Positions 15,825 through 58,169 are shown, counted from the first letter of the stretch. The stretch: DNA of 64,000 nucleotides from Candidatus Melainabacteria bacterium (GCA_027451745.1 DAIDIP010000001.1:62001-126000); one strand, 5' to 3'. The notes: generated from the sequence alone by a model not told the origin. A program made the numbers and translations.

Positions 15825-15835
15825 GTGGTTCTTAG

Positions 15836-16547: not shown

Positions 16548-16723
16548 TTGCTTTCTTCCGCAAACAAATACAAAGTGGCTACTATGTGAATAACTGTGAT
16601 AAAGCTTTTGCGCAACAATCGGCCCGTGGGTTCAGTTGATTCTTTTCTGACGGTAGCGCATTCGATACGACTCTATCTGCCTTGAATAGAAGATGTATAG
16701 AAGATGACTGATTTTACCTACCT

Positions 16724-16757
16724 AAAAAAACGGAGCGATTCTCATTGAGAACCGCTC
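16724..16757 (-). terminator. Intrinsic terminator of the tRNA-Val fragment
   Basis: On the minus strand GAGCGGTTCTC and GAGAATCGCTC pair over 11 bp (one G-U) around AAT and are followed by CCG and seven T residues. It lies 12 bases beyond the 3' end of the tRNA-like sequence at 16770, in the right orientation to be that tRNA gene's terminator. Confidence 0.8.
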
Positions 16758-16769
16758 ACTGTCAATATT

Positions 16770-16816
16770 TGGGCGGTATAGGATTCGAACCTATAACCCC
16801 CTCGGTGTAAACGATG
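16770..16816 (-). other. Attachment site: 3' half of a tRNA-Val(TAC) gene
   Basis: The minus strand reads as anticodon loop TTTACAC (anticodon TAC), stem CGAGG, a 5-base variable loop, T-arm ATAGG-TTCGAAT-CCTAT, acceptor strand ACCGCCC and discriminator A. No 5' half (a GGGCGGT strand and D-arm) is found on the 5' side, and the 5' anticodon stem already has a mismatch, so homology stops near the anticodon. A truncated tRNA 3' end beside a P4-type integrase is the classic att scar or carried attP of an integrating element. Confidence 0.85.
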
Positions 16817-16950
16817 TGCTGCAACGATTTTACTGGGTTTTCCGGGATTTTCGCTAATTTTCTCAACTTATCGCTATATTGCTGAAGAAGCGCACTGGTT
16901 ATGGCACACGTGTATCTCAGTCTTATTCTTGTTTTCTCTATATATTTTTC

Positions 16951-17121: not shown

Positions 17122-18426
17122 ATGCCAGCAAAATCAATTCTGTGTCTGAATTTTACTAAAACGGAGCTTGCAAAGCTGCCGATTCCGAATGCGGGTTACG
17201 TAGTCCACCATGACACGACCGTTGAAGGACTTGTTCTTTTGGTCTATGCCACCGCAGCTAAGCGTTTTTACGTGTATAAGAAAGTAGATGGTAAACCTAC
17301 CCGCATTAGAATTGGTAAGTTTCCAGATATATCGGTCGAGCTGGCTCGCAAAGAAGCCCAGCAAATTTTGGGTGCGATTGCTCAAGGTGGGAGACCAATA
17401 TCGAAGAGCAGGAGAAAAGAACCCACGATACAGCTGGACGATCTTTTTAAGCGCTATATAACTGAATATGCTCAACACCATTGCACCACCTGGGAAGAAA
17501 CCGAAAAAAGTTTTCGGCGGTGTTTTCGCTCCTGGCTGTTGCGCGAAGTAAGCACAATCACACGTGCTGATATACAACAGCACATGAACGTGCTTGGGGA
17601 AGAGCGTGGCCAACATACGGCGAATCGCGCCTTCGATGATCTGCGCGCCGTGATCTCATGGGGCATTAAATATGATTACGTGACGGGCATTAATCCTTGT
17701 GTTGGCGTCATCAAATTCAAGACCCTTTCACGGGAGCGATTCATTCATCCTCAAGAATTTAGTAACTTTCTGACAAAGTTGCGCGAAAGTAAGAACATCG
17801 ATATTCGAGACTATACTTATTTGAGCCTGTTCACCGGTGCACGCCAAGCGAACGTTCTTGCAATGCGCTGGGATGAGATTGACTTTGATCTGTGTTTGTG
17901 GCGCATCCCAAAGACAAAGAACTCCAAATCTCACACAATACCACTTACGGTGGCAGCTATGGCGGTCTTGAACGAACGCAAAGAAAGGATTACTGAACCA
18001 TGGGTTTTTCCAAGCAAAACATCTGCAGTGGGTCATTTGGTTGAGCCGAAGATCGGCTGGCGCCAGCTACTAAAGGACGCACAGATAGAAGATTTGCGCA
18101 TGCACGACTTGCGGCGGACACTTGGTAGTTACATGGCAATGGGCAATCAGAGCCTACACATAATTGGCAAAGCGCTTGGGCACCAATCTCACACTTCGAC
18201 GCAAGTTTACGCCCGGCTTGCTCACGATCCAGTACGGCAAGCAATGGAAAAAGCCCAAGCAGATATGCTGCTGGCAGCAGGACTTGTGTCGCCTGCTGAT
18301 TTTATTAGCGCAATCGCTGGGCATGAACCTGCAGCTCGCCAACGCGCTCACGAGAAAATGTTCAAGCAAGAACAGCCTTCACCAGATACTAATGTCATAC
18401 TCAAAGAGGCAAGTGTTAAATACTAG
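17122..18426 (+). CDS. P4-type tyrosine integrase
   Basis: The 434-residue protein has the DUF4102 arm-binding domain (LVLLVYATAAKRFYVYKKVD, IRIGKFPDISVELARKEA), a SAM-like core-binding domain and a catalytic domain with Arg in TGARQANVLAMRW, His-Leu-Arg in MHDLRRTLGSYMA, His in ALGHQSHTSTQ and nucleophile Tyr in VYARL. Such integrases insert islands and conjugative elements into tRNA 3' ends, agreeing with the tRNA-Val fragment 300 bp upstream. All catalytic residues are present, so it is probably active. Confidence 0.95.
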   Translation: MPAKSILCLNFTKTELAKLPIPNAGYVVHHDTTVEGLVLLVYATAAKRFYVYKKVDGKPTRIRIGKFPDISVELARKEAQQILGAIAQGGRPISKSRRKEPTIQLDDLFKRYITEYAQHHCTTWEETEKSFRRCFRSWLLREVSTITRADIQQHMNVLGEERGQHTANRAFDDLRAVISWGIKYDYVTGINPCVGVIKFKTLSRERFIHPQEFSNFLTKLRESKNIDIRDYTYLSLFTGARQANVLAMRWDEIDFDLCLWRIPKTKNSKSHTIPLTVAAMAVLNERKERITEPWVFPSKTSAVGHLVEPKIGWRQLLKDAQIEDLRMHDLRRTLGSYMAMGNQSLHIIGKALGHQSHTSTQVYARLAHDPVRQAMEKAQADMLLAAGLVSPADFISAIAGHEPAARQRAHEKMFKQEQPSPDTNVILKEASVKY

Positions 18427-41629: not shown

Positions 41630-41632
41630 GAA

Positions 41633-42247: not shown

Positions 42248-42249
42248 TC

Positions 42250-42672: not shown

Positions 42673-43139
42673 TGGCGCTTGCTCTCTAGTTGAATTGCCT
42701 CAACAGATGGAGTACAGCAAGCAGACTTCTTTGCCAACGGAATATCTGTGCTTACCTTATTGTCATTACCATATACTGTTGCAGTGCCAGTTGTTAGGAA
42801 AGTTTCCCAGGCTAGACCTTGTGGATCAACTACCCATGCCTTCTCGGCCGTTGCATAACAACATGTTGTGGCACCTTCATCTAATACTTGCGTACCGGCA
42901 GCTTTAAGGCGTTTTGTTACTTCCTGTAATTCGGCTTCGCCTTCGGCTTGGATTCCTAAGTGATCTAATCCTGGTTCTCGGCCTCTGCTCGATATCGCAA
43001 AGTTCACGCGAGGATTATCCATCATCCATTTAGCATAGTCGTCTTTTTCTACCGTGGGTAAACAACCAAATAAATTACTATAGAATTTGATCGATTGTTT
43101 AATATCCGCCACGGCTACATGTACGTGAAATCGTTTCAT
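42669..43139 (-). CDS. ArsI/CadI-family VOC metalloenzyme
   Basis: The 156-residue protein is a vicinal-oxygen-chelate enzyme with His5, His60 and Glu112 as the metal triad and the Cys93-Cys94 pair in TTCCYAT, as in ArsI C-As lyases that demethylate trivalent organoarsenicals. CadI-type cadmium-induced proteins share the fold. Ars operon context favours ArsI. The tail carries a second pair (SACCTPS). Confidence 0.88.
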   Translation of the reverse strand: MKRFHVHVAVADIKQSIKFYSNLFGCLPTVEKDDYAKWMMDNPRVNFAISSRGREPGLDHLGIQAEGEAELQEVTKRLKAAGTQVLDEGATTCCYATAEKAWVVDPQGLAWETFLTTGTATVYGNDNKVSTDIPLAKKSACCTPSVEAIQLESKRQ

Positions 43140-43439
43140 TTAACACTTACCTCCATTATCAGCACAGCAATTTTCAAGTAAGAAGTCTATAAGTGTTTGC
43201 ATACGCTTATAATTCGCTGAATAAATGATCGAGCGACCTTCTCGCCTAGAGGTTACTAAACCCGTGTTACTGAGCTCTTTTAAATGAAAAGACATAGTTG
43301 CAGCCGGTAAGTCAAAATACTGACTTAATTTGCCTGCAGCAATGCCGGCTGGACCTTTCCTTACCAGCAATCTAAACACTTCTAATCGTGATCCTTGGGC
43401 CAAAGCATTCAGTGCCTTGACTGCATCATTAGCTTTCAT
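43140..43439 (-). CDS. arsR: ArsR-family As(III)-responsive repressor
   Basis: The 99-residue protein is an ArsR winged helix (GSRLEVFRLLVRKGPAG, TMSFHLKELSNTGLV, REGRSIIYS). It lacks the ELCVCDL site of E. coli ArsR and instead has Cys91, Cys92 and Cys99 at the C-terminus, like the Acidithiobacillus type. ATG at 43439 was chosen over an upstream TTG. It is first in the operon and should repress it. Confidence 0.92.
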   Translation of the reverse strand: MKANDAVKALNALAQGSRLEVFRLLVRKGPAGIAAGKLSQYFDLPAATMSFHLKELSNTGLVTSRREGRSIIYSANYKRMQTLIDFLLENCCADNGGKC

Positions 43440-43555
43440 ATTTCCAATAATATCAAATGATTCACCGATAGTCAAACAGCGCAACAAAACATCTATTTTG
43501 CTGCATCTATGACAATTTAGTTTGACAAGTACAGTTCCTCGATTAATTTCTCAAC

Positions 43556-43748: not shown

Positions 43749-44903
43749 TTATTGTGGACCGACACGACGTTGACTAGCAGCTAACTGTATATGGTTCTGG
43801 ATATTCCTATATTTCTCTCGAATAGCAACTACTTCGGGATTGTCGGAACCTAAAGATTTAGTCAGTATAGTCAAAGAGCGCTTGGCACACGGTTCTGCTA
43901 ATCGATATTTACCTTGCAGCTCATAAAGATCAGCCATATTGCTAAGCACTACACCTATATCTGGATGATTTGGTCCAAACGAGTTTTCCCTTATTGTGAG
44001 GCTTTTTTTGAAGAATTTTTCTGCCAAGTCATATTTTTTTTGTTCTTTGTATATACTAGCTAAATTATTCAAGATGATAGCTGCCGAAGGATGATTAGGC
44101 CCCAGAATTTTTTGTCGCATGTTTAGAGCTTGCTTAAAAAGTGCCTCAGATTGTGCCAAATCACCTTGTTCAGCACATACTTCAGCCAAGTTTGCTAGGC
44201 CAGTAGCTATCGAAGGATGATTGGGACCAAGCAATTTTTTGCGGATATTCAATGATTTTTCAAAAGTTAGTTTTGCATCTTCTATTCTATTTTCATAAAC
44301 ATACAAAGTTGCTAGATTATTTAAATCAGTAGATCGTAGATCCTCATCTTTGTTTTGCTCAGCAATAGATAAGGCGCGCGTATACATTGTTTCAGCTTGC
44401 TTGTATTGCTTCATCTGTTGATAGACAGTTCCTAAATTTTCTAGCGTGCTTCCAACTAATCTATTATTATTACCTAGGTGGATTTCGATTATCTTGAGCG
44501 CCTGTTCAAACAGCTCTTTAGCCTCACTGAAACATCCACGTTCTGTGCGTACTATGGCTAAATTATCTAGATCTGGTATTAAATTTAAAGTGTCAATTCC
44601 ATAAACCTTTTTTGCGAGTGCGAGCGAAGACCGAAAATTCTGCTCCGCTTGTGGATAATTACCCAGACTATAATGCGCATTGCCGAGATTGCGGAGAGCC
44701 TTGATAATCTGTTTATCTGATCTTTGTTTTTGGGCTGCTCCTAATTCTTTCTCATACTGAATTGCGGCATTAATATAATCGCACCGTCCATAATAAATTT
44801 TACCTTTCTGTTCGTAGTCGGTAGACAAATCTGAGGCGCCAGTGGTAAGACAACAGACTAGGCAGAGACAAGGCAACAGGCTAGACTTTACAACAGAAAT
44901 CAT
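43749..44903 (-). CDS. Exported tetratricopeptide-repeat protein
   Basis: The 384-residue protein has a signal peptide (MISVVKSSLLPCLCLVCCL) and about eight TPR units of the 42-residue kinesin-light-chain type with the recurring loop LGPNHPS / FGPNHPD. TPR proteins act as protein-binding scaffolds. The partner is unknown. A crcB-type riboswitch with a terminator (44930-45014) lies immediately upstream, so expression is probably switched by that aptamer's ligand. Confidence 0.88.
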   Translation of the reverse strand: MISVVKSSLLPCLCLVCCLTTGASDLSTDYEQKGKIYYGRCDYINAAIQYEKELGAAQKQRSDKQIIKALRNLGNAHYSLGNYPQAEQNFRSSLALAKKVYGIDTLNLIPDLDNLAIVRTERGCFSEAKELFEQALKIIEIHLGNNNRLVGSTLENLGTVYQQMKQYKQAETMYTRALSIAEQNKDEDLRSTDLNNLATLYVYENRIEDAKLTFEKSLNIRKKLLGPNHPSIATGLANLAEVCAEQGDLAQSEALFKQALNMRQKILGPNHPSAAIILNNLASIYKEQKKYDLAEKFFKKSLTIRENSFGPNHPDIGVVLSNMADLYELQGKYRLAEPCAKRSLTILTKSLGSDNPEVVAIREKYRNIQNHIQLAASQRRVGPQ

Positions 44904-44929: not shown

Positions 44930-45014
44930 AAAAACTTCTACCATCCCGAGATTAGTAGAAGCTATTAGCCGTTTGCGGCGGTTCAGTCATAATGACAAGG
45001 TGAGCTTCATCACC
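44930..45014 (-). promoter_or_regulatory. crcB-type (fluoride) riboswitch with terminator, unit 1
   Basis: The minus strand reads P1 hairpin GGTGATGAAGCTCACC (44999-45014), a small P2 hairpin GTCA-TTA-TGAC, then AACC-GCCG-CAAA-CGGC-TAAT-AGCTTC. Loop GAAGCT pairs with AGCTTC (44958-44963) to form the pseudoknot. The terminator CTTCTAC...GTAGAAG (44935-44961) plus five T shares AGCTTC/CTTCTAC, so aptamer and terminator exclude each other. A TATAAT (45023-45028) stands 8 bases before the aptamer. Confidence 0.8.
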
Positions 45015-45108
45015 ATTGCTACATTATATACCTACTATACAACATAGGACATTTGTATGGAATTTTTCTAACAAAGCAACAGTTCCATCAAGTGCTCGAA
45101 GACTATTT

Positions 45109-46320
45109 CTAGATAGCTGATTCTTTTTCTAACGGTTTAGTAGACACGGCAAGCATAAATGCTGCCCCGATAAGTGTGGTAGTTGCACTATAATAAAATC
45201 CACTTGCAATGGATACTTTTGTCCATAGCAATCCCACTATTATACTGGAAAGCAAATCTCCGAAAGAATTAATAGTGGCTAACGCACCATATCCGATGCC
45301 TCTTTTATCTAAAGGCAATAGATCCGCAGCTAAAGCACGCTCCATGGCATCGACAATTGCTATATAAAGTCCAGACAGAATAAAGAGTATTGATAGTAGA
45401 GCAAGATTTTCATTTGCAAATACAAACCCGATACACATCATTCCAAAAATAGCATAACCAACAGCGAGGAGTTGTTTTTTATTCACTCGATCTCCTAGGG
45501 CGCCTATCGGATAAGATGCTGCTGCATATATTACATTGTGGACAATATATAAACCGATACCAATTTGGCTGGCGACTACTGCGCCCCAATGTGGGGTAAG
45601 TATTGATATGGCTCTCAAAACAAGTAATGTATGAGCAAAATTACCTAAGCCAAAAACTCCGACCGATAATACATATTTCCAAAATTGTGGAGATAGTCCT
45701 TTCAGTGATGACCACATTCGTAAGTGCGGTTGTGGGGTAAGTGGAGTTTCTTGAATACCAAAGAGAACAATACCGATTGTGATTGCTCCTGGAATGAAAG
45801 ATATTAGAAAAATTTGCCGTATTGGCAAAATACTAAGCAACGATAAAGCAATTGCTGGACCTAAAATAGCTCCTATAGTATCCATTGCGCCTTCAAAACC
45901 GAATGCCCTTCCATGTGCGGCACTTGGTACACTTTCTGACAATAGTGCGTCCCGCACCGGGCCGCGTGCGCCACGTCCAATCCATGCGATAACTCGAATA
46001 ATAAGGATTTGCCACCATGCGCTGACAAAAGCCAGCGTACCCATCATTGCTGTCACGAAATAACCTACGGCTAGTATTGGTTTACGTTTACCGATGCGAT
46101 CTGAATGATATGACATCCAGAGTTTTATTAAGCTCGATGCAGCATCTGAAATACCCTCAATAGCGCCAAGAGCAATTGCACCACCACCGAAGCTAACGAG
46201 AAATACGGGTAAAATTGCTGTAGTTAGCTCATGTCCCATATCAGAAAATAAGCTAAGCATGCCAATGGCAAATACATTACGCGTTAGCCATTTAGAATTT
46301 GATTTTGAATTTAATAACAT
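45109..46320 (-). CDS. Major facilitator superfamily transporter
   Basis: The 403-residue protein has twelve membrane spans and the MFS loop motif YHSDRIGKRKPILAVGY between spans 2 and 3, repeated as GALGDRVNKKQLLAVGYA in the second half. The substrate is unknown. It is the last gene of a five-gene minus-strand set (51590 to 45109) that begins behind riboswitch unit 2. Confidence 0.88.
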   Translation of the reverse strand: MLLNSKSNSKWLTRNVFAIGMLSLFSDMGHELTTAILPVFLVSFGGGAIALGAIEGISDAASSLIKLWMSYHSDRIGKRKPILAVGYFVTAMMGTLAFVSAWWQILIIRVIAWIGRGARGPVRDALLSESVPSAAHGRAFGFEGAMDTIGAILGPAIALSLLSILPIRQIFLISFIPGAITIGIVLFGIQETPLTPQPHLRMWSSLKGLSPQFWKYVLSVGVFGLGNFAHTLLVLRAISILTPHWGAVVASQIGIGLYIVHNVIYAAASYPIGALGDRVNKKQLLAVGYAIFGMMCIGFVFANENLALLSILFILSGLYIAIVDAMERALAADLLPLDKRGIGYGALATINSFGDLLSSIIVGLLWTKVSIASGFYYSATTTLIGAAFMLAVSTKPLEKESAI

Positions 46321-46338
46321 TAGCTTATCCTAGATTCG

Positions 46339-46767
46339 TCACCGCACTACCAAGACTGAACAAGGAGCATGTCTTATCACCTTATCTGCGGTTGTGCCAA
46401 AAAAATTACCCCACATATCTGAATGGCCGCTGTGCCCTAATATAAGTAGATTGGCATTGATCGAAGATACATATTCAACTAATGCCTTGGCGGGATGCCC
46501 AATCTTGATATGCATATTTACATTTTTTAAATCGGTTCCTTCTTTTGTGAGTGTTTCCTCTGCCTCCTTATGCAGCTTACGAAAATATGATTCTTTAGAA
46601 TTTCGTTCTTCAATTACTTCGCTTATCGTACCTGGGAAGCGAGGTAGTTCTTCAATAGAAATAACAAAAATCTGAGCATGATCAAGATTTGCTAATCTCA
46701 CCGCTTCTTTCAGAGCCTTCCACGAATAAGATGAACCATCAAAGCCAACCACTATTTTCTTTGCCAT
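46339..46767 (-). CDS. Universal stress protein (UspA family)
   Basis: The 142-residue protein has the Usp alpha/beta fold: KIVVGFDGSSYSWKALKEA at the start and the ATP-binding pattern GHSGHSDMWGNFFGTTADKV then CSVLVV at the end. The G-x2-G-x(8-9)-G-T layout indicates nucleotide binding. It lies between the TolC gene and the MFS gene. Its inclusion in a transporter operon is unusual. Confidence 0.92.
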   Translation of the reverse strand: MAKKIVVGFDGSSYSWKALKEAVRLANLDHAQIFVISIEELPRFPGTISEVIEERNSKESYFRKLHKEAEETLTKEGTDLKNVNMHIKIGHPAKALVEYVSSINANLLILGHSGHSDMWGNFFGTTADKVIRHAPCSVLVVR

Positions 46768-46826
46768 TATCGCTCTCCTTCAAGTAAGCTTTTTTACGAG
46801 ATACTAGTTACTTATCATTTTCGTCA

Positions 46827-48335
46827 CTACAACTGAGAAGTAATTGCTTTAAGGGCCAAAATCCCAATGTGGTATTCAATTTCAGCGTCTATCATGCGAA
46901 ATTTTGCTTCGTTCAACTGTCGCGCTCTTTCAGCCATAAAATAAACAGTGCTATCACCCACTCTAAATCTTTCTCGCTCACCCTGATAAACCTGGTCAGC
47001 CTTGTTTACTTGTGACTCTAGAGCGACAAATCTTTTGTAAGCTAGGTTAATAGCTGAAGTTGCATCTAAAACTTCATTACGTATTCTTTGTTGCTCAGCT
47101 TGACGATCTTTATCTAATTTATCCAGACGCAACTTGGCAGCTGCAACTTTGCCACGAGCTGTTCTTAGATATAACGGTTCGCTGAAGGTAATCTGGCCTC
47201 TATACACGTTATGTATGCCATTGTACCCGGTGTCATATCCATAAGTACCGACTACGTTTAGCGCCGGTAACATTTGATTTTGTGCCAATTTCAGTTGTAT
47301 CTGCGCGATTTTTTTTTGAACATCAATTGCCTTTAGCTCGGGACGACTTGCCAACGCAAGTGAAATGTGACGATCAGTATCTGTATCTGAAATAAAAACA
47401 GGTTTTGGAATGTCAGGAACATTTACCTCCGTTGGCAAAGGTAATGGTGTACCGCCAACATCAAATAGAAACGAGGATAATTGAAATGAAGAGCGTTGAA
47501 ATTCTCTTTGTGATTGGGCAACATCTGCCGTCCGCCGCTGTTGATCTTCTTCGGCTTCTGTAACATAAATGCGAGCTAGATCTCCTTGTTGTTCTTGTTG
47601 TTGACTGATACCAACGACTATATTAACGAGGCTAAGAATTTCATTTGATACCACAACTTTATGTTGTGCGCCGACCCAGCTCCAATAGATGCTACCGGCT
47701 CTTAATAATGTATCCAAGCGTGTCAAGATAAAGGTTTGGGTGGCTAGTTGCTCGCCAAATTTGCCTTCTTTCTCTGCAACAGATTGTTCGTTATAAATCA
47801 GTCCACGCAGTAAGGGGATGAATAAACCACCTGAATATTCTCCACCTTCGCCAGTTTCAATATACGGCGATTGAGAACTATTGGGATTATAGCGATACTG
47901 TCCAAAGGCTCTTATACCTGAGCGAAAAGGTAATTCCAGTTTTGGATAGTTAAATAGAACGTCTTTCGCTTCACCAATGTGAGATGTGTTCTGCAATCTT
48001 GTATAGCCATCCTCTGTAGTAAACAAAGGATCAAAAACACCTTGTTTTTCAAGTCTGTTAGCACTAGCGGTCCGCTGTTGATCTACCGCACTCGCCAGAC
48101 CTGGAAAATTGGCATCAACCGCATGCAAATAAGTATCTAGTGACAGTTTTTCTTTGGTCAAGATTATTAAACGAGCTTGTTCACCATCCCGCGAGGATCT
48201 TGGTACTATGCTGACAGGTTGCATAATAGCCGTTTCTTTTGCTTCGACTTTAAATAGAAGAATAAGCGAAAGACCAATCGGGAGCAAACAACCGAGTAAT
48301 AGCTTTTTGCAACTTTCCGGTAGTGGATTCTGCAC
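46827..48335 (-). CDS. TolC-family outer-membrane protein
   Basis: The 502-residue protein has an N-terminal signal/hydrophobic segment (LLLGCLLPIGLSLILLF) and the OMF helical repeats, with GGLFIPLLRGLIYNEQSVAEK and RERFRVGDSTVYFMAERARQ. It probably completes a tripartite exporter with the fusion protein at 48338 and the ABC transporter at 49773, whose genes are 2 and 27 bp apart. Confidence 0.88.
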   Translation of the reverse strand: MQNPLPESCKKLLLGCLLPIGLSLILLFKVEAKETAIMQPVSIVPRSSRDGEQARLIILTKEKLSLDTYLHAVDANFPGLASAVDQQRTASANRLEKQGVFDPLFTTEDGYTRLQNTSHIGEAKDVLFNYPKLELPFRSGIRAFGQYRYNPNSSQSPYIETGEGGEYSGGLFIPLLRGLIYNEQSVAEKEGKFGEQLATQTFILTRLDTLLRAGSIYWSWVGAQHKVVVSNEILSLVNIVVGISQQQEQQGDLARIYVTEAEEDQQRRTADVAQSQREFQRSSFQLSSFLFDVGGTPLPLPTEVNVPDIPKPVFISDTDTDRHISLALASRPELKAIDVQKKIAQIQLKLAQNQMLPALNVVGTYGYDTGYNGIHNVYRGQITFSEPLYLRTARGKVAAAKLRLDKLDKDRQAEQQRIRNEVLDATSAINLAYKRFVALESQVNKADQVYQGERERFRVGDSTVYFMAERARQLNEAKFRMIDAEIEYHIGILALKAITSQL

Positions 48336-48337
48336 AA

Positions 48338-49747
48338 TTACGGTGTCTCACTTTGACCGGTTGGATTGTCCGTCTCAGGTGTAGCGATAGTTGGTTGAAA
48401 TCCGTTAAATTGCCGCCACAATTCGTACCATACTGGAACATTGCGCAATAAAACCCAGCCTGTAACCTTAGCCCCAGGTCGTAACCATTTAACCGATGGC
48501 CATGGTTCTTCCTTTTTTTGGGCAATTGCTTCTTGGTCCGGCACAACGATTATTCGATAGAAATGTCGTCCGTCATCAACGGCGTCAATTACGGCAACAC
48601 GCCCGGCAAATGTACCAACTGCTACAGAAGGCCAACCAACAAACTGTAATGATGGCCAACCAGATATAGCTAATCTTACCGGATCACCAATACGTATCAA
48701 TGGAGCATCATAGTCTCGCATTAAAACTGCTGCTGCTCGATCTTCCGTACCGGGAACAATTGTGGCCAATATTGCTCCAGCGTTAACTGTTTCACCTGCA
48801 CCAACACGATTTAGTCTTACTACTCTGCCTGCGCATGGCGCCCGTATAGCACGCTGTTGTATGCGTTCAGATAGATTTTGAATATCAACATCCAAGTGAT
48901 CAATGTCCGCCGAAGTTGAGGCTATAACTTGGTTTGCTTCGGCAACAGAGGCTTTAATAGCATTTATATTTCCTTCCGTGTCAGCCGATATGCGCTTGTA
49001 ATCAAGTGAAGATATATCAACATCTTTTTTAACGACATTGTAAGCAGCTTTAGCGCGCTGCAATTCTCTCTTTGCTCGAACATTATCTAGTAGAGCCACT
49101 TGTTGATCGCGTTGTGAACGCAGTCCTTTTTCGTACAAAGCATTGATTCGATCTAATTGCCATTGGGTTGTTTTAACGCTCTGCTCGGCAATTTCAACAC
49201 TCCGATCAGCGGCAGATAATCGATCCTCTGCTTGCCCAATACGCTGTTCGGCAGCTGGCACAGCATTCTGTCTGGAAGTAGAAACATTCTGCAATTGATC
49301 ATTCAGAGACGCCAGGCGTTCCTTAGCAGCATCTCGCTTTGATACCAGAGCTCGCCTTTGATCGATCAGTGTATCTAATTGAGTATGAGACAAAAAACGT
49401 GGGTCAATATCAGTTAACTCAGCTATCAACTGTCCTTTTTCAACGACTTGCCCATCTCGCAAATACCATTGCAATAAACGGCCAGAAATTTGAGCTTCGA
49501 TTTCTTGTGGTCGCTGCATAGGTGAAAAAACAAAGATTTGCCCTGCCCCAACTACAGACTGTCTCCAAGGGACGAACATAACAAAAATCACTGATAATAC
49601 GAATACTGCAAATAGGATAATGCCGAATATTCTTGGACCTGGCCCTGTTTGAACCATGTCCAGTGACCTAAGTCGAAATTCTGGCTCGTGTAATGTTTGT
49701 TCTAAAATTTGTCTATTTAGATTTAAATTGTCGGCGTCGTTTATCAT
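48338..49747 (-). CDS. HlyD-family membrane fusion protein
   Basis: The 469-residue protein has one membrane span near residues 35-55 (IILFAVFVLSVIFVMFVPW), a lipoyl half-motif (GRLLQWYLRDGQVVEKGQLI), a long coiled coil (residues 120-290) and the second half-motif (RAPCAGRVVRLNRVGAGETV). This is the adaptor of a type I-like exporter. ABC, adaptor and TolC occur together. Confidence 0.9.
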   Translation of the reverse strand: MINDADNLNLNRQILEQTLHEPEFRLRSLDMVQTGPGPRIFGIILFAVFVLSVIFVMFVPWRQSVVGAGQIFVFSPMQRPQEIEAQISGRLLQWYLRDGQVVEKGQLIAELTDIDPRFLSHTQLDTLIDQRRALVSKRDAAKERLASLNDQLQNVSTSRQNAVPAAEQRIGQAEDRLSAADRSVEIAEQSVKTTQWQLDRINALYEKGLRSQRDQQVALLDNVRAKRELQRAKAAYNVVKKDVDISSLDYKRISADTEGNINAIKASVAEANQVIASTSADIDHLDVDIQNLSERIQQRAIRAPCAGRVVRLNRVGAGETVNAGAILATIVPGTEDRAAAVLMRDYDAPLIRIGDPVRLAISGWPSLQFVGWPSVAVGTFAGRVAVIDAVDDGRHFYRIIVVPDQEAIAQKKEEPWPSVKWLRPGAKVTGWVLLRNVPVWYELWRQFNGFQPTIATPETDNPTGQSETP

Positions 49748-49772
49748 AATTTTCTCTACTTGATCTGCAACC

Positions 49773-51590
49773 TTATCGTTTTAAGTCAGCAATAACCCTC
49801 AATATTTGGACCAACTGTGGAAAAAGATGTTCCAAGTTGCCATTAATGCGTTTAATTAGTTCTTGCGGAGTTCCTGACTCAACAATTCTTCCCTCCGAAA
49901 GAACAATGATTCTGTTTGAACGTAAAATACTATGTGCGTCATGTGATATGTCAATAATTGTCCATGGCAGTTCCGGCGAATAAATACGATCTAAAATATC
50001 CAACTTGCTTCGTTCTTCAATAGCGGTAAACGCTTCATCAAGGATCAATAATTGCGGGCGTTTTACAATTGCTCTTGCTAATAATAACTTCTGCGCTTGT
50101 CCTCTAGAAAGATTTTTACCGCCTGATCCCAGAACTGTTTTAAGTCCGTCTGGTAGATAATTCAATTCCTCGTTAAACTGAACTAGATCGAGAGCCCACA
50201 TAATGTCGAAATGACCAATTTCTTTTCGACCGAGCCCAACATTTTCGATAATCGTGCCGGGAAAAATTTCATTGGCATCGTTCATTAAGGCAACTGAGCC
50301 GCGTAAACTTTGCAGATCCACATCACGTATGTCTATACCATTGACTTGTACTAAACCTGCTTCTGGTTCGAGCAATCCGCATAATAATGCTGCTAAGGTA
50401 GTTTTTCCCGAGCCGTTAGAACCAAATAAACTAATTTTTTCACCAGGATTGAGACTCAGATCTAAACCTCGCAAAATATCATTTCCTTCCGTATAAGCAA
50501 ACCGCAATCCTCGTATGTCGACACGCGCTCCTTGCGAAGATTTAGGTAATAATTCTCCGTCCTTTCTCTCTAAAGGGAGATCCTCGACGTAACCGATTTT
50601 GTTTAAGGCAGACAATAATTCATAGACATTTTGCAAGTTGCGGACCAAGCGCTCTAAACCCGGTAGTACCATATTGATGATTAACAATGAGGCCACAAGT
50701 TGTCCCATTGTCAATTGTCTGTGGATAACTAAATAGCCACCAAAACCTAAAACGCCAGCACTAGCAAGGGATTGAAAGAAGAATAAACCTGTTGCTTGGC
50801 GGAATAGAACCTTAAAGTGAATTCTACGCAATCTTACATATTCTTCTAATAGCTGATCTGCTCGCTCAATTAAAAATGGCGGTATGCCATTAGTTTTGAT
50901 ACCGGTTTCACAACGAGCTATTTCTTCTAACCACTCCGCTATTTTAAAGCGCTGAGTTGTTTCGTCGCTTCGTGTACGAAATCCGCCAAAACCAAATACA
51001 TAAACTTCAAGAAGAAAAAAGCCAATAACAATTAAATCGAACAATAAAAGCCACGGACTATAAAAAGCTAGCAATACTAGTCCAACTAAAACCTGTAATG
51101 CAGCAGCTGGTGCATCAAGCAGAAAATTGAACCAACCAGACTGTACTGTGATAGTGTCAAAGAATCGATTTACTAGCTCTTGCAAATGTTCTTTTTGCAA
51201 AGCAGCATGTCGTACACGAGGAACACGATGCGCTAGCCGTAAAGTGACTCGGGCAAATGTACGTTGCCTGATTTGTTCGACTATCCATAGTGTCAAAAGA
51301 CGTAGAATGGCTGCAAAACAAAGTCCAAATAGTACTAAACCAGCGATGACCGTAAGAGGTTGCAGGAAAACGCCAGCAGCTACCGTGTTTACAATAATTT
51401 GAGTAGCGAGTGGTATTGATAAAGAAAACAGTCCGCTAAAGAATGTATATAGCAGAATCAAAACGAGGTCATGTTTGTCCTCAAAAATCATCTGCTTTAG
51501 ACGGTTATGTGCAGAAGTAGCTTGCTTTGGCCGCTCGTCTGTGCCTGGTGGATAAAGTAATTTCACTACCTGATTAACGATGTTATTCAT
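49773..51590 (-). CDS. ABC exporter, fused membrane and ATPase domains
   Basis: The 605-residue protein has a six-span exporter domain (residues about 35-330) and an ATPase with Walker A GSNGSGKTT, signature NLSRGQAQ, Walker B LLILDEAF and switch His in ISHDAHS. No C39 peptidase domain is present, so a double-Gly leader substrate is not indicated. It is the first gene behind riboswitch unit 2, about 170 bp downstream. Confidence 0.92.
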   Translation of the reverse strand: MNNIVNQVVKLLYPPGTDERPKQATSAHNRLKQMIFEDKHDLVLILLYTFFSGLFSLSIPLATQIIVNTVAAGVFLQPLTVIAGLVLFGLCFAAILRLLTLWIVEQIRQRTFARVTLRLAHRVPRVRHAALQKEHLQELVNRFFDTITVQSGWFNFLLDAPAAALQVLVGLVLLAFYSPWLLLFDLIVIGFFLLEVYVFGFGGFRTRSDETTQRFKIAEWLEEIARCETGIKTNGIPPFLIERADQLLEEYVRLRRIHFKVLFRQATGLFFFQSLASAGVLGFGGYLVIHRQLTMGQLVASLLIINMVLPGLERLVRNLQNVYELLSALNKIGYVEDLPLERKDGELLPKSSQGARVDIRGLRFAYTEGNDILRGLDLSLNPGEKISLFGSNGSGKTTLAALLCGLLEPEAGLVQVNGIDIRDVDLQSLRGSVALMNDANEIFPGTIIENVGLGRKEIGHFDIMWALDLVQFNEELNYLPDGLKTVLGSGGKNLSRGQAQKLLLARAIVKRPQLLILDEAFTAIEERSKLDILDRIYSPELPWTIIDISHDAHSILRSNRIIVLSEGRIVESGTPQELIKRINGNLEHLFPQLVQILRVIADLKR

Positions 51591-51763
51591 TTGAATTAAC
51601 CAATTTTTCTACGATGCTCCAAATAAAGTATTTTTCAGTACGCAATATCTGCATGCCGAAACTGTTCTTGCGGGAATTATCCGAAGCACGGCTTGTTCAA
51701 TATATTTATATAAAAAGTTTGAGACAGAACTGCCCAACTGACCTCCATTTTTTGGCACACAAA

Positions 51764-51828
51764 CCTGATCTTAATGATCAGGAGTCATCAGCCAAGTCGG
51801 CGGTTCTTGTTAGGCAGACTCCATTGCC
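51764..51828 (-). promoter_or_regulatory. crcB-type (fluoride) riboswitch with terminator, unit 2
   Basis: The minus strand reads P1 GGCAATGGAGTCTGCC (51813-51828), linker TAACAAG, AACC-GCC-GACTT-GGC-TGAT-GACTCC. Loop GGAGTC pairs with GACTCC (51781-51786). A hairpin CCTGATC-ATTAA-GATCAGG (51764-51782) followed by TTTGTGTG overlaps the last two pseudoknot bases, a terminator arrangement. This is the copy nearest the published crcB consensus. It precedes the ABC-HlyD-TolC-UspA-MFS operon. Confidence 0.8.
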
Positions 51829-51896
51829 TTATTGAGAGTTTAAGGGACAGTACAATTTATGTCCAGCCATAATTCTCTGTTCCTAAGCTATATAAA

Positions 51897-52514
51897 TTAT
51901 AACCCGGTTTTTAAAATTGCGTCAGTATTCGGCATCTGATCTTGCAGGACACGATCGACACTTGGCAATGCAGTTAATTGGGTGTTTAGTTGCAATGGTA
52001 CGTCGGGAATGGGAATTTCTTTATTCTGGGCGGTCCTGCTTTTTTGCATTTCGCTACGGAACTCGTTGCTGATAGCAGTAGTGAGTACGGTCTCTTTAAA
52101 AGCTGCACGTTCTCGGTTAAATGTATCTGTTAAATGCATTGTATTTGAATAGGAGCGACTCATTTGTTCTTGAACAAATGTAGGAACAGTCTTTTCAGCA
52201 AGACCAACTCCAGATACAGGTCCAGAACCTAGTAAACCGAAACCACCGGAAGTATTTGAAAGTCCAAATTCAGGACCATTTGGATATAACCTTCCGAACC
52301 CTAATGACTCAATGCTTGAGCCACGCGGCCAAAAAACCCCAGGACTGCTACTTGGAATGCCAAAGGTTGTAGTAATAGGCGGCTGTGTATTGTTTGGAAT
52401 ACTAAAAGTTGCAGTAACAGGCTGTTGCGAAGTACTTTGGCTAATCGCCGGGGATACATAACCAAAGAAGCAAATAAAGCAAGCAGTTAGCCTATATTTT
52501 TTTATATTATCCAT
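51897..52514 (-). CDS. Exported protein with ITTTFGIP-like repeats
   Basis: The 205-residue protein has a signal peptide ending near Ser25, a Ser/Thr/Pro-rich start with two copies of (V/I)T(A/T)TF(S/G)IP, a Gly-rich segment and a helical C-terminus. No family is recognised. It lies immediately upstream of the exporter operon on the same strand and could be its cargo, which is only a positional guess. The protein at 55987-56535 is similar in style (ATFAPQGG repeats). Confidence 0.6.
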   Translation of the reverse strand: MDNIKKYRLTACFICFFGYVSPAISQSTSQQPVTATFSIPNNTQPPITTTFGIPSSSPGVFWPRGSSIESLGFGRLYPNGPEFGLSNTSGGFGLLGSGPVSGVGLAEKTVPTFVQEQMSRSYSNTMHLTDTFNRERAAFKETVLTTAISNEFRSEMQKSRTAQNKEIPIPDVPLQLNTQLTALPSVDRVLQDQMPNTDAILKTGL

Positions 52515-52616
52515 ATGGTTATATCTTTATCCGGTTGAACATATCATAGGTACAGAGTTTACATAAAATAAACGAAATTGAACAGAATAGTATTACACTC
52601 AGTTATAATTTATGTA

Positions 52617-52694
52617 GGTGGTGAAGCTCACCAAGTCATCTGACTAAACCGCGAATGAGCCAATAGCTTCTGCCAGGACACAATAGGGCAGAAG
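52617..52694 (+). promoter_or_regulatory. crcB-type riboswitch, divergent copy, unit 3
   Basis: P1 is GGTGGTGAAGCTCACC (52617-52632), with G where the other copies have A. A P2 hairpin AGTC...GACT and AACC-GC-GAATGA-GC-CAAT-AGCTTC follow. The pseudoknot GAAGCT/AGCTTC is kept. A strong 8-bp hairpin CTTCTGCC...GGCAGAAG (52667-52694) ends 4 bases before the HAD ATG and would hide its ribosome site, suggesting translational control. TATAAT lies at 52604-52609. Confidence 0.65.
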
Positions 52695-52698
52695 TAAC

Positions 52699-53364
52699 AT
52701 GCAACATTATCCTTTTCGTTGTATCTTTTTTGATCTCAACGGTGTTGTTTTAAATGACACACAGGCACACCAGAAGGTTTGGAAAGAGTTCTTTCTAAAG
52801 CATGGTGTTTTACCTTCTGACAATAATATTTCGCGCACTAACGGACGAAGAGCTTACGATGTAATTATAGAAATATGTGGCGTTCAGCCAGATGGATTTC
52901 GATGCCATGAGTTGATGGAAGAATTTACTGACACATATCAGGCATATCTTTTAGATGCTGACTTAATTGGCGTCGCCGGTATTAAAAATTTTTTGACCAA
53001 TTTGGCCATGTGCGGTGTGCAAAAGGTACTTACTACTAGTGAAACGATAGTAAATGCCAAACTCGTGCTGATGAAACTTGGACTGCAATCACTATTTGAT
53101 AAATTAGTTACTGCCGAGGATGTCGATAAGGGAAAACCCGATCCATCAGTTTATGAAGCTGCGTTATCTAGATCCGGAACCTACAAGAATAATTGTTTAG
53201 TAGTAGAAGATTCTATTGCTGGTATCAGAGCAGCAAAAGCTGCTGGAATTAAGTGCCTTGGATTAACGACTAGTTTGTCGGAAGATGAGCTTGTATCAGC
53301 AGGAGCCGACTGGATAGCTGGTGACTTCCTTAGCTTGCCAAAAAACCTTGCTATACATCATTAG
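52699..53364 (+). CDS. HAD-superfamily hydrolase with DxN motif
   Basis: The 221-residue protein has the HAD fold of the beta-phosphoglucomutase/dehalogenase branch: motif I FFDLNGVV (Asp12, Asn14), motif II VLTTSE, motif III Lys in DKGKPDPSVYE and motif IV VVEDSIAGIRAAKAAG. The second motif-I Asp, the usual acid/base of HAD phosphatases, is Asn. Dehalogenases also lack that Asp, so a non-phosphatase reaction is possible but unproven. It lies behind riboswitch unit 3. Confidence 0.88.
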   Translation: MQHYPFRCIFFDLNGVVLNDTQAHQKVWKEFFLKHGVLPSDNNISRTNGRRAYDVIIEICGVQPDGFRCHELMEEFTDTYQAYLLDADLIGVAGIKNFLTNLAMCGVQKVLTTSETIVNAKLVLMKLGLQSLFDKLVTAEDVDKGKPDPSVYEAALSRSGTYKNNCLVVEDSIAGIRAAKAAGIKCLGLTTSLSEDELVSAGADWIAGDFLSLPKNLAIHH

Positions 53365-53404
53365 TGCATCTGAATTTATAGAAAATCGCGTCCAAAGATA
53401 TTTC

Positions 53405-53599
53405 TCATTTTTCCTTGTCTCCCAGTAATTCAAGCGCCTCCCGAACTAATTGTGATACCAATTCAATAAAATACGTCATTGAACGGTTAGATTGTTTATT
53501 TTCTGTTAGGACTTTTTCCAGTGACTCTAATCCTCTGATCACGTTGTGTAATTTAGATATGACCATCCTCTTTGAGCTACGTGTCATGCGTCTAGACAT
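53405..53599 (-). CDS. Small helical protein, about 64 aa
   Basis: The frame encodes a basic start (MSRRMTRSSKRMVISKLH) and an amphipathic helical remainder (GLESLEKVLTENKQSN, LVSQLVREALELLGDKEK). ATG at 53599 has GAGG about 10 bases upstream; an ATG at 53623 is an alternative. It is convergent with the HAD gene. No family is recognised. Confidence 0.45.
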   Translation of the reverse strand: MSRRMTRSSKRMVISKLHNVIRGLESLEKVLTENKQSNRSMTYFIELVSQLVREALELLGDKEK

Positions 53600-53749
53600 A
53601 ATTGCTTGCCTCACGGCAATCATTTACTAGACGCGGCCAAATGCCCACATTTCTTAATCCAATATAGAAATGAGATTTTCTACGCACTATATCTAAAATG
53701 AAGAGGGTGATAGAGCGGCATATAAATTTGGAGTCTACCTGTCGCCCTA

Positions 53750-54205
53750 TCAAAAACTTATTATATCACCGCTAATCCGAGAACTACTTTCTTTCAAACG
53801 CATTAAAGTTTTTTGTGCTCGTGAGCATACGTATGGATTTTCATTGCTCGCGAGTATATGTAGCAAAGGCGCAGGTAATGCTGGGTTTTGCGCCAATCCA
53901 TAACAGACATCTAAATTGTCAGTCAAGATTAATAACTCTATTGCTTCTGTGGGTGTATTTGCGTTTTCTGCTGCGCTCAACTGTACATCAATATCTGAAT
54001 CCTCTATAAGTTCAAGTAGAATTTTGGCTGGGACATTTGGATTTTCTGCAACTCGTCGCCTAATTTTTGGGCTTACGTCTCTTGCTAAAATTGCTAATGT
54101 TTTTATAGGTGTTTTTGGATTACCAGCAACTAAATAACAAGCCAGAAATTCACTCTGGTTATAATAAGTTACCTTAGCCTCACCTCTATAATTCAGGTCC
54201 AGCAT
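53750..54205 (-). CDS. LRV-repeat protein
   Basis: The protein of about 151 residues is made of three to four leucine-rich-variant repeats of the form GNPKTPIKTLAILARDVSP / ENPNVPAKILLELIEDSDID / ENANTPTEAIELLILTDNLD / QNPALPAPLLHILAS. LRV and related HEAT-like repeats bind proteins. No catalytic domain is present. The start is uncertain: ATG 54205 or TTG 54244, neither with a good ribosome site. It lies downstream of riboswitch unit 4. Confidence 0.75.
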   Translation of the reverse strand: MLDLNYRGEAKVTYYNQSEFLACYLVAGNPKTPIKTLAILARDVSPKIRRRVAENPNVPAKILLELIEDSDIDVQLSAAENANTPTEAIELLILTDNLDVCYGLAQNPALPAPLLHILASNENPYVCSRAQKTLMRLKESSSRISGDIISF

Positions 54206-54528
54206 GACGATGTGTTTGACTTCTGTCAGTTTGTGGTGCCTCAATAGTATTCATTTTTTATGTCGTTCTATAGTAAGATTTGATAATTTCAGCAATAACC
54301 ACATAAGTAACCAAATACGGTGACATATCAATACCAACGCAAATCTTAGTTATCATCTGTTTCATAAAACAATTATTGTTTTGCCTATGCTTAGACTATC
54401 TGAGCACAACAAACATTTTAGTTTCAAAATTGCAAATTAGCCATACTCCCCCTCAATGGTCAAATCCAAACGTAAGGAGAAGTGCTTATGCTAAAAAAGA
54501 ATACCGAATCCTAATTACAGCCAAGCCA
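54206..54528 (-). other. Leader between riboswitch unit 4 and the LRV gene
   Basis: About 320 bp of AT-rich sequence separates the aptamer at 54529-54596 from the LRV gene. It holds a 35-codon minus-strand frame (54258-54365, MKQMITKICVGIDMSPYL...) ending close to the possible TTG start at 54244, without a clear ribosome site. It may be a leader peptide or untranslated. Confidence 0.35.
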
Positions 54529-54596
54529 CTACTCTTTAGTAGAAGCTATCGGCTCGTAAGCGGTTCGGTTAAAATAACCTGGTGAGCTTCATCACC
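54529..54596 (-). promoter_or_regulatory. crcB-type riboswitch, unit 4
   Basis: The minus strand reads P1 GGTGATGAAGCTCACC (54581-54596), a P2 hairpin GGTTA-TTT-TAACC (54567-54579), then AACC-GCT-TACG-AGC-CGAT-AGCTTC. Loop GAAGCT pairs with AGCTTC (54542-54547). A short hairpin CTACT-AAAG-AGTAG follows without a T tract. The base after P3 is C where other copies have T. It reads towards the LRV gene. Confidence 0.72.
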
Positions 54597-54605
54597 TAAC
54601 TGTTG

Positions 54606-54633
54606 ATTATAGACTCCGATATCTTATAGTCAA
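54606..54633 (-). promoter_or_regulatory. Sigma-70 promoter of riboswitch unit 4
   Basis: On the minus strand TTGACT (54628-54633) and TATAAT (54606-54611) are 16 bases apart. The predicted start, about 7 bases on, falls three bases before the aptamer's first G. Confidence 0.8.
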
Positions 54634-54724
54634 TTAAAATAGCGTTAATAGCTATGTGTGCTGATCCTCTTTCGCCTATACAGATAATTGATTGATATCC
54701 GGCGTTTTAGTAGCAACTTGCGCA

Positions 54725-54730
54725 TATAAT
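54725..54730 (+). promoter_or_regulatory. -10 element of riboswitch unit 5
   Basis: A perfect TATAAT stands 8 bases before the aptamer at 54739. No good -35 is seen at the usual distance. The same 7-9 base TATAAT-to-aptamer spacing holds for units 1, 3 and 4. Confidence 0.65.
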
Positions 54731-54738
54731 GTTCAAAT

Positions 54739-54809
54739 GGCGATGAAGCTCGCCCTGTCTTCTGACTAAACCGCCAAGCACGGCTGATAGCTTCTATCAG
54801 TATTGGTAG
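54739..54809 (+). promoter_or_regulatory. crcB-type (fluoride) riboswitch, unit 5
   Basis: P1 is GGCGATGAAGCTCGCC (54739-54754), P2 GTC-TTCT-GAC, then AACC-GCC-AAGCAC-GGC-TGAT-AGCTTC with pseudoknot GAAGCT/AGCTTC (54789-54794). The following hairpin CTATCA-GTAT-TGGTAG (54794-54809) shares the end of the pseudoknot strand and lies over the AGGG before the ATG at 54820, so translational control is likely. Confidence 0.8.
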
Positions 54810-54819: not shown

Positions 54820-55860
54820 ATGGTATTAGTTTCTTCAATAGAATGGCGAAAGGACTTGCCATGTATTCAAGCCCATTGCAAAGATGTATATAAATATATT
54901 AGATTGTCATTTGGAACAGTGCTAATAATTTCTCTCATTTTAAATGTCATTGTACTGTCGGAAAACAGAGCTTTCGGTAACGAACAACGAAGTGCATTTT
55001 CAGATGTAGCTGACACAAAATCTACCAGCTCAACGGTAAATGATTTTTCAGCAGAAGCTCGCGAGATCGCAGAGCTCGCTGAAATTACTCCAGTACTTGA
55101 GCAATTAGAGAGTCTGCAAAAATCTGCAACAGCAAATGAATCATCTTCGAATAGAATAGAAAGAGCACAAGAAATAATCTATCTACGCGGGCAGTTAAAT
55201 GCTTTAATACAAGCAGGTAATCTACAAATCAACGCCACACGTGGCAGATTAGAATCGGCAATTGCGCAAGCCAGAGAATTACGTGCTTACATAGCAGAGC
55301 GACGCAATCGTATCACCCGTCGCACTAACACAATTAACTTGATCAGCGGTGGAATTACAAAGATAGTGGGTTATTCGGTAGCTCTTGGTAATCTTACAGC
55401 TATCCCAACTAACACCCTAGAAGTGTTTGATGGTGGTGTGCAATCAGCTCTGTCTGCTTTAGCTCTGCGTGAACAACAACAGGAAAATAAATTGGAACAT
55501 GGTATGCCTCCCATTTTAGAATCATTTTTGAACAACACACGTGGGCCGCATTTACTTGCGCCGGGAGTCTGGATGTATTTGAATCATCCACCGCTCGACA
55601 ATAAAACAACAAAATCGCGCCGCCAGTTGTTAATTGAAAGCTGGGAAAAAAGTGGTATTCTTCGTGATGCAAATACACCTAATACACACTCGAAAACAAA
55701 ACCTTCTATGTCTATAGACTTGCTTGATGAGCGTATTGCTATGTTATCGGATTTAGAATCTGCTGTATCTGAAATGCATGGTGGACTAATGGAATTAAGT
55801 AATGTAGTTGCCATCTCGTATAAAAAAAACAAAAATGAATTGCACTATGCCGTTCCATAA
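54820..55860 (+). CDS. Hypothetical exported or anchored helical protein
   Basis: The 346-residue protein has one hydrophobic segment near residues 32-48 (FGTVLIISLILNVIVLS), a long helical, Glu/Ala/Arg-rich region (ARELRAYIAERRNRITRRTN) and a glycine-containing hydrophobic patch (LISGGITKIVGYSVALGNL). No family is recognised. It lies 10 bases after riboswitch unit 5 with AGGG as its only ribosome site, inside the regulatory hairpin. Confidence 0.7.
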   Translation: MVLVSSIEWRKDLPCIQAHCKDVYKYIRLSFGTVLIISLILNVIVLSENRAFGNEQRSAFSDVADTKSTSSTVNDFSAEAREIAELAEITPVLEQLESLQKSATANESSSNRIERAQEIIYLRGQLNALIQAGNLQINATRGRLESAIAQARELRAYIAERRNRITRRTNTINLISGGITKIVGYSVALGNLTAIPTNTLEVFDGGVQSALSALALREQQQENKLEHGMPPILESFLNNTRGPHLLAPGVWMYLNHPPLDNKTTKSRRQLLIESWEKSGILRDANTPNTHSKTKPSMSIDLLDERIAMLSDLESAVSEMHGGLMELSNVVAISYKKNKNELHYAVP

Positions 55861-56805: not shown

Positions 56806-58161
56806 TTGGCGAGAGTAGCTATTGTTAACTTAATGGTCTTGGTTTTGTCACTCTGCTCAATATGGTCTGGAGCAGCAGCGATAGAGAATTTGCACCCGGT
56901 TATGACTGAATCCGATCCTCAATCAAATGCTTCGAGACAAACGAATTCTAAGATGACGCTCGATCAGACGCTTGAGGAGGCATGTCTTGCCAATCCAAGT
57001 TTAAAGCTTATCGAAGCTCAAAGACCAGTAGCGGAAGCTGGGATCGTTCAGGCGAAGATCAGAGTGAACCCCTTCTATCAAGGAGAATTTGCGCCTGCCG
57101 AAAACACTTATCGCTTTTACATGATCACGGCTACAACCCAACTTGGACTGAAACGCCAGCGCCGCATTGAAGTTGCCAAAGGGCTTATTGATTCCACCAA
57201 TGCTACTATTCGCACAATGGCATGGAAGATCAGACAGGATACTGAATCTGCATATTTTGAACTTGCTATAGCCCAGCAAACTTTGCAAGTTATGGAAGAT
57301 TATTTAGAAACTACGAAGCGATTATCAGCTACAACACAAAAGAGACGCGAAGCTAGAGATGCCTCGGGTTTAGAAGTTCTTCGGGCCGAGGCTGCTGTCG
57401 CTGACGCCAAAGCACAAGTTGTGCCGGTAGAAGTACGCGTCCAACAGGCCATGCGTCAACTCAACCTTATTCTGGGTCGACCGCCAGAAAATCCAATTGA
57501 GATTATGCCTCCGGCATTCCTGTCACTAAGAAAGTCATCAGCACGTATTCCGCCATTTACAACGCTAATCAGTCAGGCAGAAAAGTATCGACCTGAATTT
57601 CGCCAGAATGATGCTGATTTGTCCGTACAGGCATCCAGGATAAAACTAGCACGCTCTTTCTGGTGGCCAGACGTACAGACGACCATGGGAATGAGCTCAG
57701 TCGCTCAGAACGCTAATAACGATTGGTTTGGCAGTCGTCTCTTAAACAAGCCCGCATGGATGTTAACTATGCCCATCCCTATCAACGACCATGGACAAGG
57801 AATACTGGCCACAGCCATAGCGGCCTATCGACAATTACAACAGCAACGTATTGCCCTTGTGAATCAAGTACGGCAGGAAGTAAATCTGACTTATAGCAGC
57901 GCCTATGCAACAGAGCAACAGATGGATATCTTGGTTAATGAGAGTTTACCCAAACAAGCAAGAATCTTAAGCATGAGCGAGATTGGATATAAAAACGGCG
58001 TGCTAGATTTGACAGCGGCTATCACCGCGCAACAGTCCGCATTGGCGACCAGAATAAATTTTCTGCAGACGGCAACGAGTTACTTTCAAGCACTTGTTCA
58101 GTTAGAGCGGGCTGTGGGGCGCCCAATTATTTCCGAGATGGTGCAACAGGGAGGTAAATAG
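56806..58161 (+). CDS. CzcC/TolC-family outer-membrane protein
   Basis: The 451-residue protein has a signal peptide (VNLMVLVLSLCSIWSGAAA) and OMF repeats with MTLDQTLEEACLANPSLKL at the start and LSMSEIGYKNGVLDLTAAI in the second half. It is the first gene of a third tripartite efflux operon with 58170 and 59402. A TTG start at 56806 is assumed; ATG 56833 is an alternative. Confidence 0.87.
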   Translation: MARVAIVNLMVLVLSLCSIWSGAAAIENLHPVMTESDPQSNASRQTNSKMTLDQTLEEACLANPSLKLIEAQRPVAEAGIVQAKIRVNPFYQGEFAPAENTYRFYMITATTQLGLKRQRRIEVAKGLIDSTNATIRTMAWKIRQDTESAYFELAIAQQTLQVMEDYLETTKRLSATTQKRREARDASGLEVLRAEAAVADAKAQVVPVEVRVQQAMRQLNLILGRPPENPIEIMPPAFLSLRKSSARIPPFTTLISQAEKYRPEFRQNDADLSVQASRIKLARSFWWPDVQTTMGMSSVAQNANNDWFGSRLLNKPAWMLTMPIPINDHGQGILATAIAAYRQLQQQRIALVNQVRQEVNLTYSSAYATEQQMDILVNESLPKQARILSMSEIGYKNGVLDLTAAITAQQSALATRINFLQTATSYFQALVQLERAVGRPIISEMVQQGGK

Positions 58162-58169
58162 CAATTAAC

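Follow-up and report, generated by a model that had tools for sequence, protein, structure and literature searches.

Five segments within 10 kb of a Candidatus Melainabacteria genome (GCA_027451745.1) had been predicted to be fluoride riboswitches of the crcB type, each with its own promoter and each facing a different gene, none of them an exporter gene. Are these segments fluoride riboswitches, and what would such a set control? We analyzed the 64,000-nucleotide stretch that contains them (DAIDIP010000001.1:62001-126000, hereafter the window) together with the remainder of this one genome, a draft assembly of 2,995,819 bases in 76 contigs. Copies were named R1 to R9 along contig C1, R1 to R5 being those in the window, and window coordinates equal C1 coordinates minus 62,000. 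The host is an Obscuribacterales-group bacterium, placed through its relatives only, and is akin to the cyanobacteria. We consider it highly probable that the copies are riboswitches of the known class that jointly make up a regulon induced by fluoride, carried by a 93-kb integrative conjugative element (ICE) in a tRNA-Val gene.

Nine fluoride riboswitches on one conjugative element

Searched with the Rfam covariance model RF01734 (fluoride riboswitch, crcB motif; cut-off 34 bits), four of the five window segments scored between 36.8 and 50.8 bits, and R3, in front of a HAD gene, fell short of the cut-off at 26.2 bits, a score that still greatly exceeds chance expectation (20-kb search, E=0.0014). 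The proposed aptamer fold was thereby confirmed for the five segments, whose predicted positions agree with the hits, and the pseudoknot pairs GAAGCT/AGCTTC in four copies and GGAGTC/GACTCC in one, as well as the P2 hairpin variants, were reproduced. The clustering also held, although the count of five was an understatement: the genome-wide scan added four copies (R6 to R9), bringing the number to nine, all at C1:106949-168310. Seven of the nine exceed the cut-off, with R8 (22.9 bits) joining R3 below it. Elsewhere in the 3.0-Mb genome the scan returned no copy, the next match having only E=0.3.

Covariation was assessed with a set of 23 aptamer cores, drawn from this genome and relatives and hand-trimmed to their paired parts in a gap-free alignment. 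Standard pairs made up 98.4% of core cells, compared with 88.4% in shuffled and 27-55% in slid controls, and two-sided changes occurred at 8 of 12 pairs, three of which belong to the pseudoknot. Support was found for both the P1 stem and the long-range pseudoknot, and the comparison with the shuffled and slid controls ruled out chance matches. The conserved AACCGC core is present in eight of the nine copies, R8 carrying AACAGC.

A perfect TATAAT lies 7-10 nt before P1 in seven of the nine copies, against an element background of 0.00034 per strand-base. For four of the window copies, the predicted spacing of 7-9 bases was recovered. The claim that each copy has its own promoter fails for R2, since no TATAAT stands at the expected place; R6, which like R2 is of the GGAGT type, lacks it there as well.

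All nine riboswitches ride on one 93-kb ICE in a tRNA-Val gene. The element spans C1:78.8-172.1 kb and is bounded by tRNA-Val repeats: the tRNA-Val 3' end is repeated at approximately 40.26 and 78.77 kb of C1, an integrase gene follows each left repeat, and the right end is the tRNA-Val gene at C1:172109-172183 (minus strand), outside the window. In addition to an integrase beside a tRNA 3'-end repeat with the tRNA opposite, the element carries a relaxase, a coupling protein and VirB4, in keeping with an ICE. Its G+C content is 43.5%, compared with 40% in the flanking chromosome. A mis-binned or stray contig was ruled out because C1 joins the element to chromosomal ribosomal-protein genes on its left, located at 18-38 kb and followed by two elements in tandem.

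The two tandem elements (C1:40261-78800, partly represented by window 1-16770, and C1:78800-172109) are related ICEs at one tRNA-Val gene. Their transfer genes are colinear with 72-75% identity, and they share a 7.4-kb efflux-type region with 87% identity (C1:54924-62329 and 93608-101004).

Target genes and predicted control

Most of the targets named in the original prediction were upheld, namely the TPR gene, the ABC operon, the HAD gene and the gene of the 346-aa protein (Table 1); the LRV gene was not, as it lies ~290 nt from R4 behind a block that is repeated at R7. Beyond the window, R6 precedes the genes of a GH57 protein whose C-terminal domain is of the branching-enzyme type and of a soluble family I inorganic pyrophosphatase, and R9 precedes those of a MutS V domain protein and its partner (the MutS-like pair). 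No clear target gene could be assigned to R7 or R8. For the most part, the copies thus stand before metabolic and stress genes. The first type IV secretion gene follows R8 on its strand at a distance of ~930 bp, and a 73-aa open reading frame (ORF) intervenes; if active, R8 might couple the transfer genes to fluoride. Beside the MutS-like pair, just upstream of R9, the element encodes a second enolase, for which no riboswitch of its own was detected and to which the chromosomal enolase is 55% identical. A dynamin-family GTPase gene adjoins this enolase gene (C1:170119-171897; L020:4119-5897, minus strand). The genome also encodes a membrane pyrophosphatase, on contig C26.

The absence of a CrcB/Fluc or EriC-type exporter, which had been claimed for the window, extends to the whole element: neither CrcB nor CLC was found on it. 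An exporter-centred locus, defined by CrcB/Fluc or CLC-F within it, is therefore not what the element represents. Genome-wide, the search returned a single crcB gene, on contig C13, and no CLC gene, and no riboswitch was found near the C13 crcB-DUF190 pair.

The R2 operon has a counterpart in the relative G003, in which the order riboswitch-ABC-HlyD-TolC is the same and the same small protein gene stands in front (71-80% identity, with the small protein at 47%). Because G003 has this order, the ABC/HlyD/TolC exporter appears to have been kept under fluoride control in two separate genomes. Scanning the genome contigs with a HlyD alignment yielded only two loci; HlyD-family proteins are common across the order, generally without riboswitch association. 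In G003, the riboswitch-controlled ABC operon is adjoined by a further fluoride riboswitch that precedes a solitary DUF190 gene (L061:12689-13147). The public record of the G003 locus (L064) is titled 'Actinobacteria bacterium'; the genome is placed in the family of the window genome, and the title is probably wrong.

As a property of the class, the aptamer binds fluoride with magnesium and expression rises (PMC11139923), and terminators frequently overlap the crcB motif (PMC2864571). With the ligand taken from the class, each RNA would bind fluoride through its pseudoknot, whereas without fluoride the 3' pseudoknot strand would pair downstream instead; the net effect would be that fluoride switches the genes on. 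Ligand binding and switching are thus predictions from sequence. In R1, the 3' pseudoknot strand forms the left arm of a terminator-like hairpin, CTTCTAC...GTAGAAG-TTTTT (minimum free energy, p=0.045), and in R3 it pairs with the bases immediately preceding the ATG in a hairpin, TTCTGCC...GGCAGAA (p=0.012). These two were individually significant in the shuffle test and the other copies were not, so that a gene-control mechanism is convincing for R1 and R3 only. A terminator-type platform appears clear in R1 and plausible in R4 and R7, and a platform covering the ribosome-binding site appears clear in R3 and weaker in R5, R6 and R9. When whole leaders were folded with the pseudoknot strands held, start-site exposure barely changed, except in R3 and slightly in R9.

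Fluoride blocks enolase and pyrophosphatase, upper glycolytic intermediates accumulate (PMC11139923), and resistance is conferred by a comparable island operon (PMC11139923, PMC5533749). The products of the element may repair or bypass the blocked steps instead of pumping fluoride out, and the likely benefit is damage control inside the cell. Candidates for this role are the soluble pyrophosphatase, the HAD phosphatase, the GH57 branching enzyme, UspA, the MutS-like pair and the envelope transporters. The branching enzyme could store sugar that accumulates behind blocked enolase and, together with the pyrophosphatase and the sugar-phosphate-type HAD protein, could act as a drain for glycolytic intermediates.

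The HAD gene also invites another explanation, in which the cluster serves organofluorine defluorination, the HAD protein being a defluorinase and the riboswitches sensing internally made fluoride. Defluorination is known for some HAD enzymes, and genomes with many riboswitches, such as that of Methylobacterium extorquens DM4, have been tied to fluorinated hydrocarbons (PMC6785547, PMC11139923). However, the protein falls in the beta-phosphoglucomutase-like phosphatase group, PMC11139923 takes most HAD proteins linked to riboswitches to be phosphoesterases, and the surroundings of the switches revealed no further candidate for an organofluorine enzyme. Its motif I reads DLN, but the nearest solved HAD protein also has DFN and the group is phosphatase-like, so the motif was given no special weight. 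We regard defluorination as highly improbable.

Several observations weigh against a regulon of nine working switches. R3 and R8 score under the Rfam cut-off, and R8, with AACAGC for AACCGC, may be dead. The distance from R2 to the ABC start is ~180 nt, the downstream switching hairpins of all nine copies combined are only suggestive when compared with shuffles (Fisher p=0.053), and a fluoride exporter, which is what this riboswitch most often accompanies, is missing from the element. The low scores, the broken base in R8 and the paralogy of R4 and R7 would also suit copies that are mostly decayed duplicates spread by recombination, few of them working. This is unlikely, given that two-sided changes keep the pseudoknot and stem pairs, including those of R8 (GAAGCC/GGCTTC), and that TATAAT is kept in place in seven copies. 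If the copies do form the fluoride-induced regulon, RNA-based fluoride sensing can be organised in many units, lying entirely on a transferable element and governing damage-control genes, not an exporter.

On the same element, window 40541-43487 holds a likely arsenic cluster with genes for an SBF-family (ACR3-like) transporter, an ArsC-like low-molecular-weight phosphatase, a glyoxalase-family protein and an ArsR-like protein. An RND efflux system adjoins the fluoride cluster (window 56806-62527), with an ACR_tran protein and adaptor- and outer-membrane-type genes. The gene names TolC, DUF190 (in G001 and G019) and those of the arsenic cluster were partly read from sequence and position.

Table 1. 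Features of the riboswitch-bearing element (window coordinates unless C1 is given)
Feature	Position	Strand	Evidence and context
tRNA-Val 3'-end copy, left end of element	16764..16840	+	
Tyrosine integrase of element	17122..18426	+	Pfam Phage_integrase
TPR protein, 384 aa, R1 target	43749..44903	-	Pfam TPR_12 1e-101
R1 aptamer	44949..45023	-	RF01734 48.1 bits; before TPR gene; TATAAT 8 nt 5' of P1
MFS transporter, R2 operon	45109..46320	-	Pfam MFS_1
UspA, R2 operon	46339..46767	-	Pfam Usp
TolC-type outer membrane protein, R2 operon	46827..48335	-	72% identity to G003 positional equivalent; type from sequence and operon position
HlyD-type adaptor, R2 operon	48338..49747	-	Pfam HlyD_3; 71% identity to G003
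ABC transporter, 605 aa, first R2-operon gene	49773..51590	-	Pfam ABC_tran, ABC_membrane; 80% identity to G003
R2 aptamer, GGAGTC/GACTCC type	51772..51837	-	RF01734 50.8 bits; before ABC/HlyD/TolC/UspA/MFS operon
Small protein, likely signal peptide, directly upstream of R2	51897..52514	-	47% identity to G003 counterpart in same place
R3 aptamer	52608..52679	+	RF01734 26.2 bits; before HAD gene; TATAAT 7 nt 5' of P1
HAD hydrolase, beta-phosphoglucomutase-like group, R3 target	52699..53364	+	Pfam HAD_2; NCBIfam PGMB-YQAB-SF best match, below its cut-off
LRV repeat protein downstream of R4	53750..54244	-	Pfam LRV; tie to R4 doubtful
R4 post-aptamer block	54300..54532	-	Repeated at R7, C1:129581-129777, ~80% identity
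R4 aptamer	54533..54605	-	RF01734 36.8 bits; promoter TTGACT-TATAAT
R5 aptamer	54730..54803	+	RF01734 43.1 bits; before 346-aa protein; TATAAT 8 nt 5' of P1
346-aa protein, R5 target	54820..55860	+	No Pfam match
R8 aptamer	C1:164895-164968 (L019:18895-18968)	-	

The paralogous units R4 and R7

R4 and R7 are paralogous with 82% identity over ~280 nt that begin at the promoter and reach far beyond the aptamer. The block behind the aptamer contains a terminator-like stem with T6, a GGGGGAGT Shine-Dalgarno sequence in a hairpin, and a six-codon ORF (MANLQF in R4, MANLRF in R7) that is too short for a coding test. Among 53 genomes of the order, the block was found in no other genome, with only a weak 25-nt match in other Obscuribacterales. 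Because the shared block precedes unrelated genes, R4 and R7 are probably independent units, resembling transcripts that stand alone.

Alternatively, R4 and R7 could simply be long leaders belonging to the genes that follow them (the LRV gene and a 420-aa element gene), their likeness reflecting a duplicated promoter-leader block. Each has a same-strand gene downstream, and G003 carries an LRV-type gene inside its small riboswitch-bearing region, although no riboswitch stands in front of it there. The paralogous block, however, stops before both genes, which are unrelated and lie ~290 and ~580 nt from the R4 and R7 aptamers, respectively, and a paralogue of the 420-aa gene lies in the adjacent element. 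We give the leader explanation slightly less than an even chance. A more specific proposal, that both are fluoride-switched small transcripts acting as a regulatory RNA with a CUUCUCC stretch or as a six-codon peptide unit, is tentative and rather unlikely; if true, a mobile-element fluoride riboswitch would control a non-coding or micro-coding output instead of a normal gene.

Relatives, plasmid islands and known systems

Among 146 genomes from the search of relatives and 386 sampled across the phylum, none but this one carried more than two copies; these large searches used stricter filters, by which weak matches are lost. G001, of the same genus, and G019 each have a single riboswitch before crcB and a DUF190 gene, and DUF190 genes are likewise present in the plasmid islands of Klebsiella and Burkholderia. 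A search with the MutS-like protein returned 101 plasmids, and riboswitches were counted in four plasmid records: Burkholderia cenocepacia (11), Klebsiella (3), Rhodococcus (1) and Rubrobacter (1). The original prediction that so many copies together are unusual therefore stands as to rarity and clustering but not as to uniqueness, the Burkholderia plasmid having eleven.

Riboswitch-bearing islands of the four plasmids carry MutS-like orthologues with 44-52% identity. They share the MutS-like pair and variously contain enolase, UspA, MFS, pyrophosphatase, HAD and dynamin-family genes; on this evidence, the gene set recurs in islands on unrelated plasmids. The R2-operon MFS protein is 35% identical to the MFS protein adjoining eno in the Rhodococcus plasmid island, and the dynamin-family gene of the Burkholderia fluoride island shows 32% identity over 161 residues to the GTPase of the element. 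For GH57, the plasmids gave distant matches only. The recurrence of MutS-like pair, enolase, UspA, pyrophosphatase and dynamin genes in distant bacteria offers testable functions for fluoride tolerance beyond export, to which the ABC/HlyD/TolC operon, the branching enzyme and the R4/R7 units add new candidates.

Our literature search found no paper on fluoride riboswitches in Obscuribacter. The copies resemble the RF01734 class in fold, pseudoknot, AACCGC core and location in 5' leaders, and MutS-type, pyrophosphatase, HAD, UspA and enolase genes are known partners of the class (PMC2864571, PMC11139923, PMC5533749). In contrast to the class, nine copies lie here on one element, none before a CrcB- or CLC-type exporter. 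Many fluoride riboswitches in one genome are also described for M. extorquens DM4, with at least 10 copies according to PMC6785547, which cites earlier work. The island of PMC5533749 is likewise horizontally acquired and carries a riboswitch and UspA, enolase and pyrophosphatase genes, but it has one riboswitch and one operon that includes crcB, whereas the present element has nine switches in separate units and no crcB; the pyrophosphatase is of soluble family I here and of the DHHA2 type there. The B. cenocepacia plasmid NZ_CP073671.1 is also conjugative and has eleven riboswitches, a MutS-like pair, and HAD, pyrophosphatase, enolase and dynamin-family genes. Its island differs in carrying CrcB, CLC and hydrogenase-type genes, and the island region gave no match to the ABC/HlyD/TolC operon or the GH57 gene. 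The cluster is best read as a variant of a mobile fluoride-tolerance island, riboswitch clustering itself being already known elsewhere; what sets it apart is the exporter-free element, the riboswitch-controlled ABC/HlyD/TolC and GH57 genes, and the paralogous R4 and R7 units.

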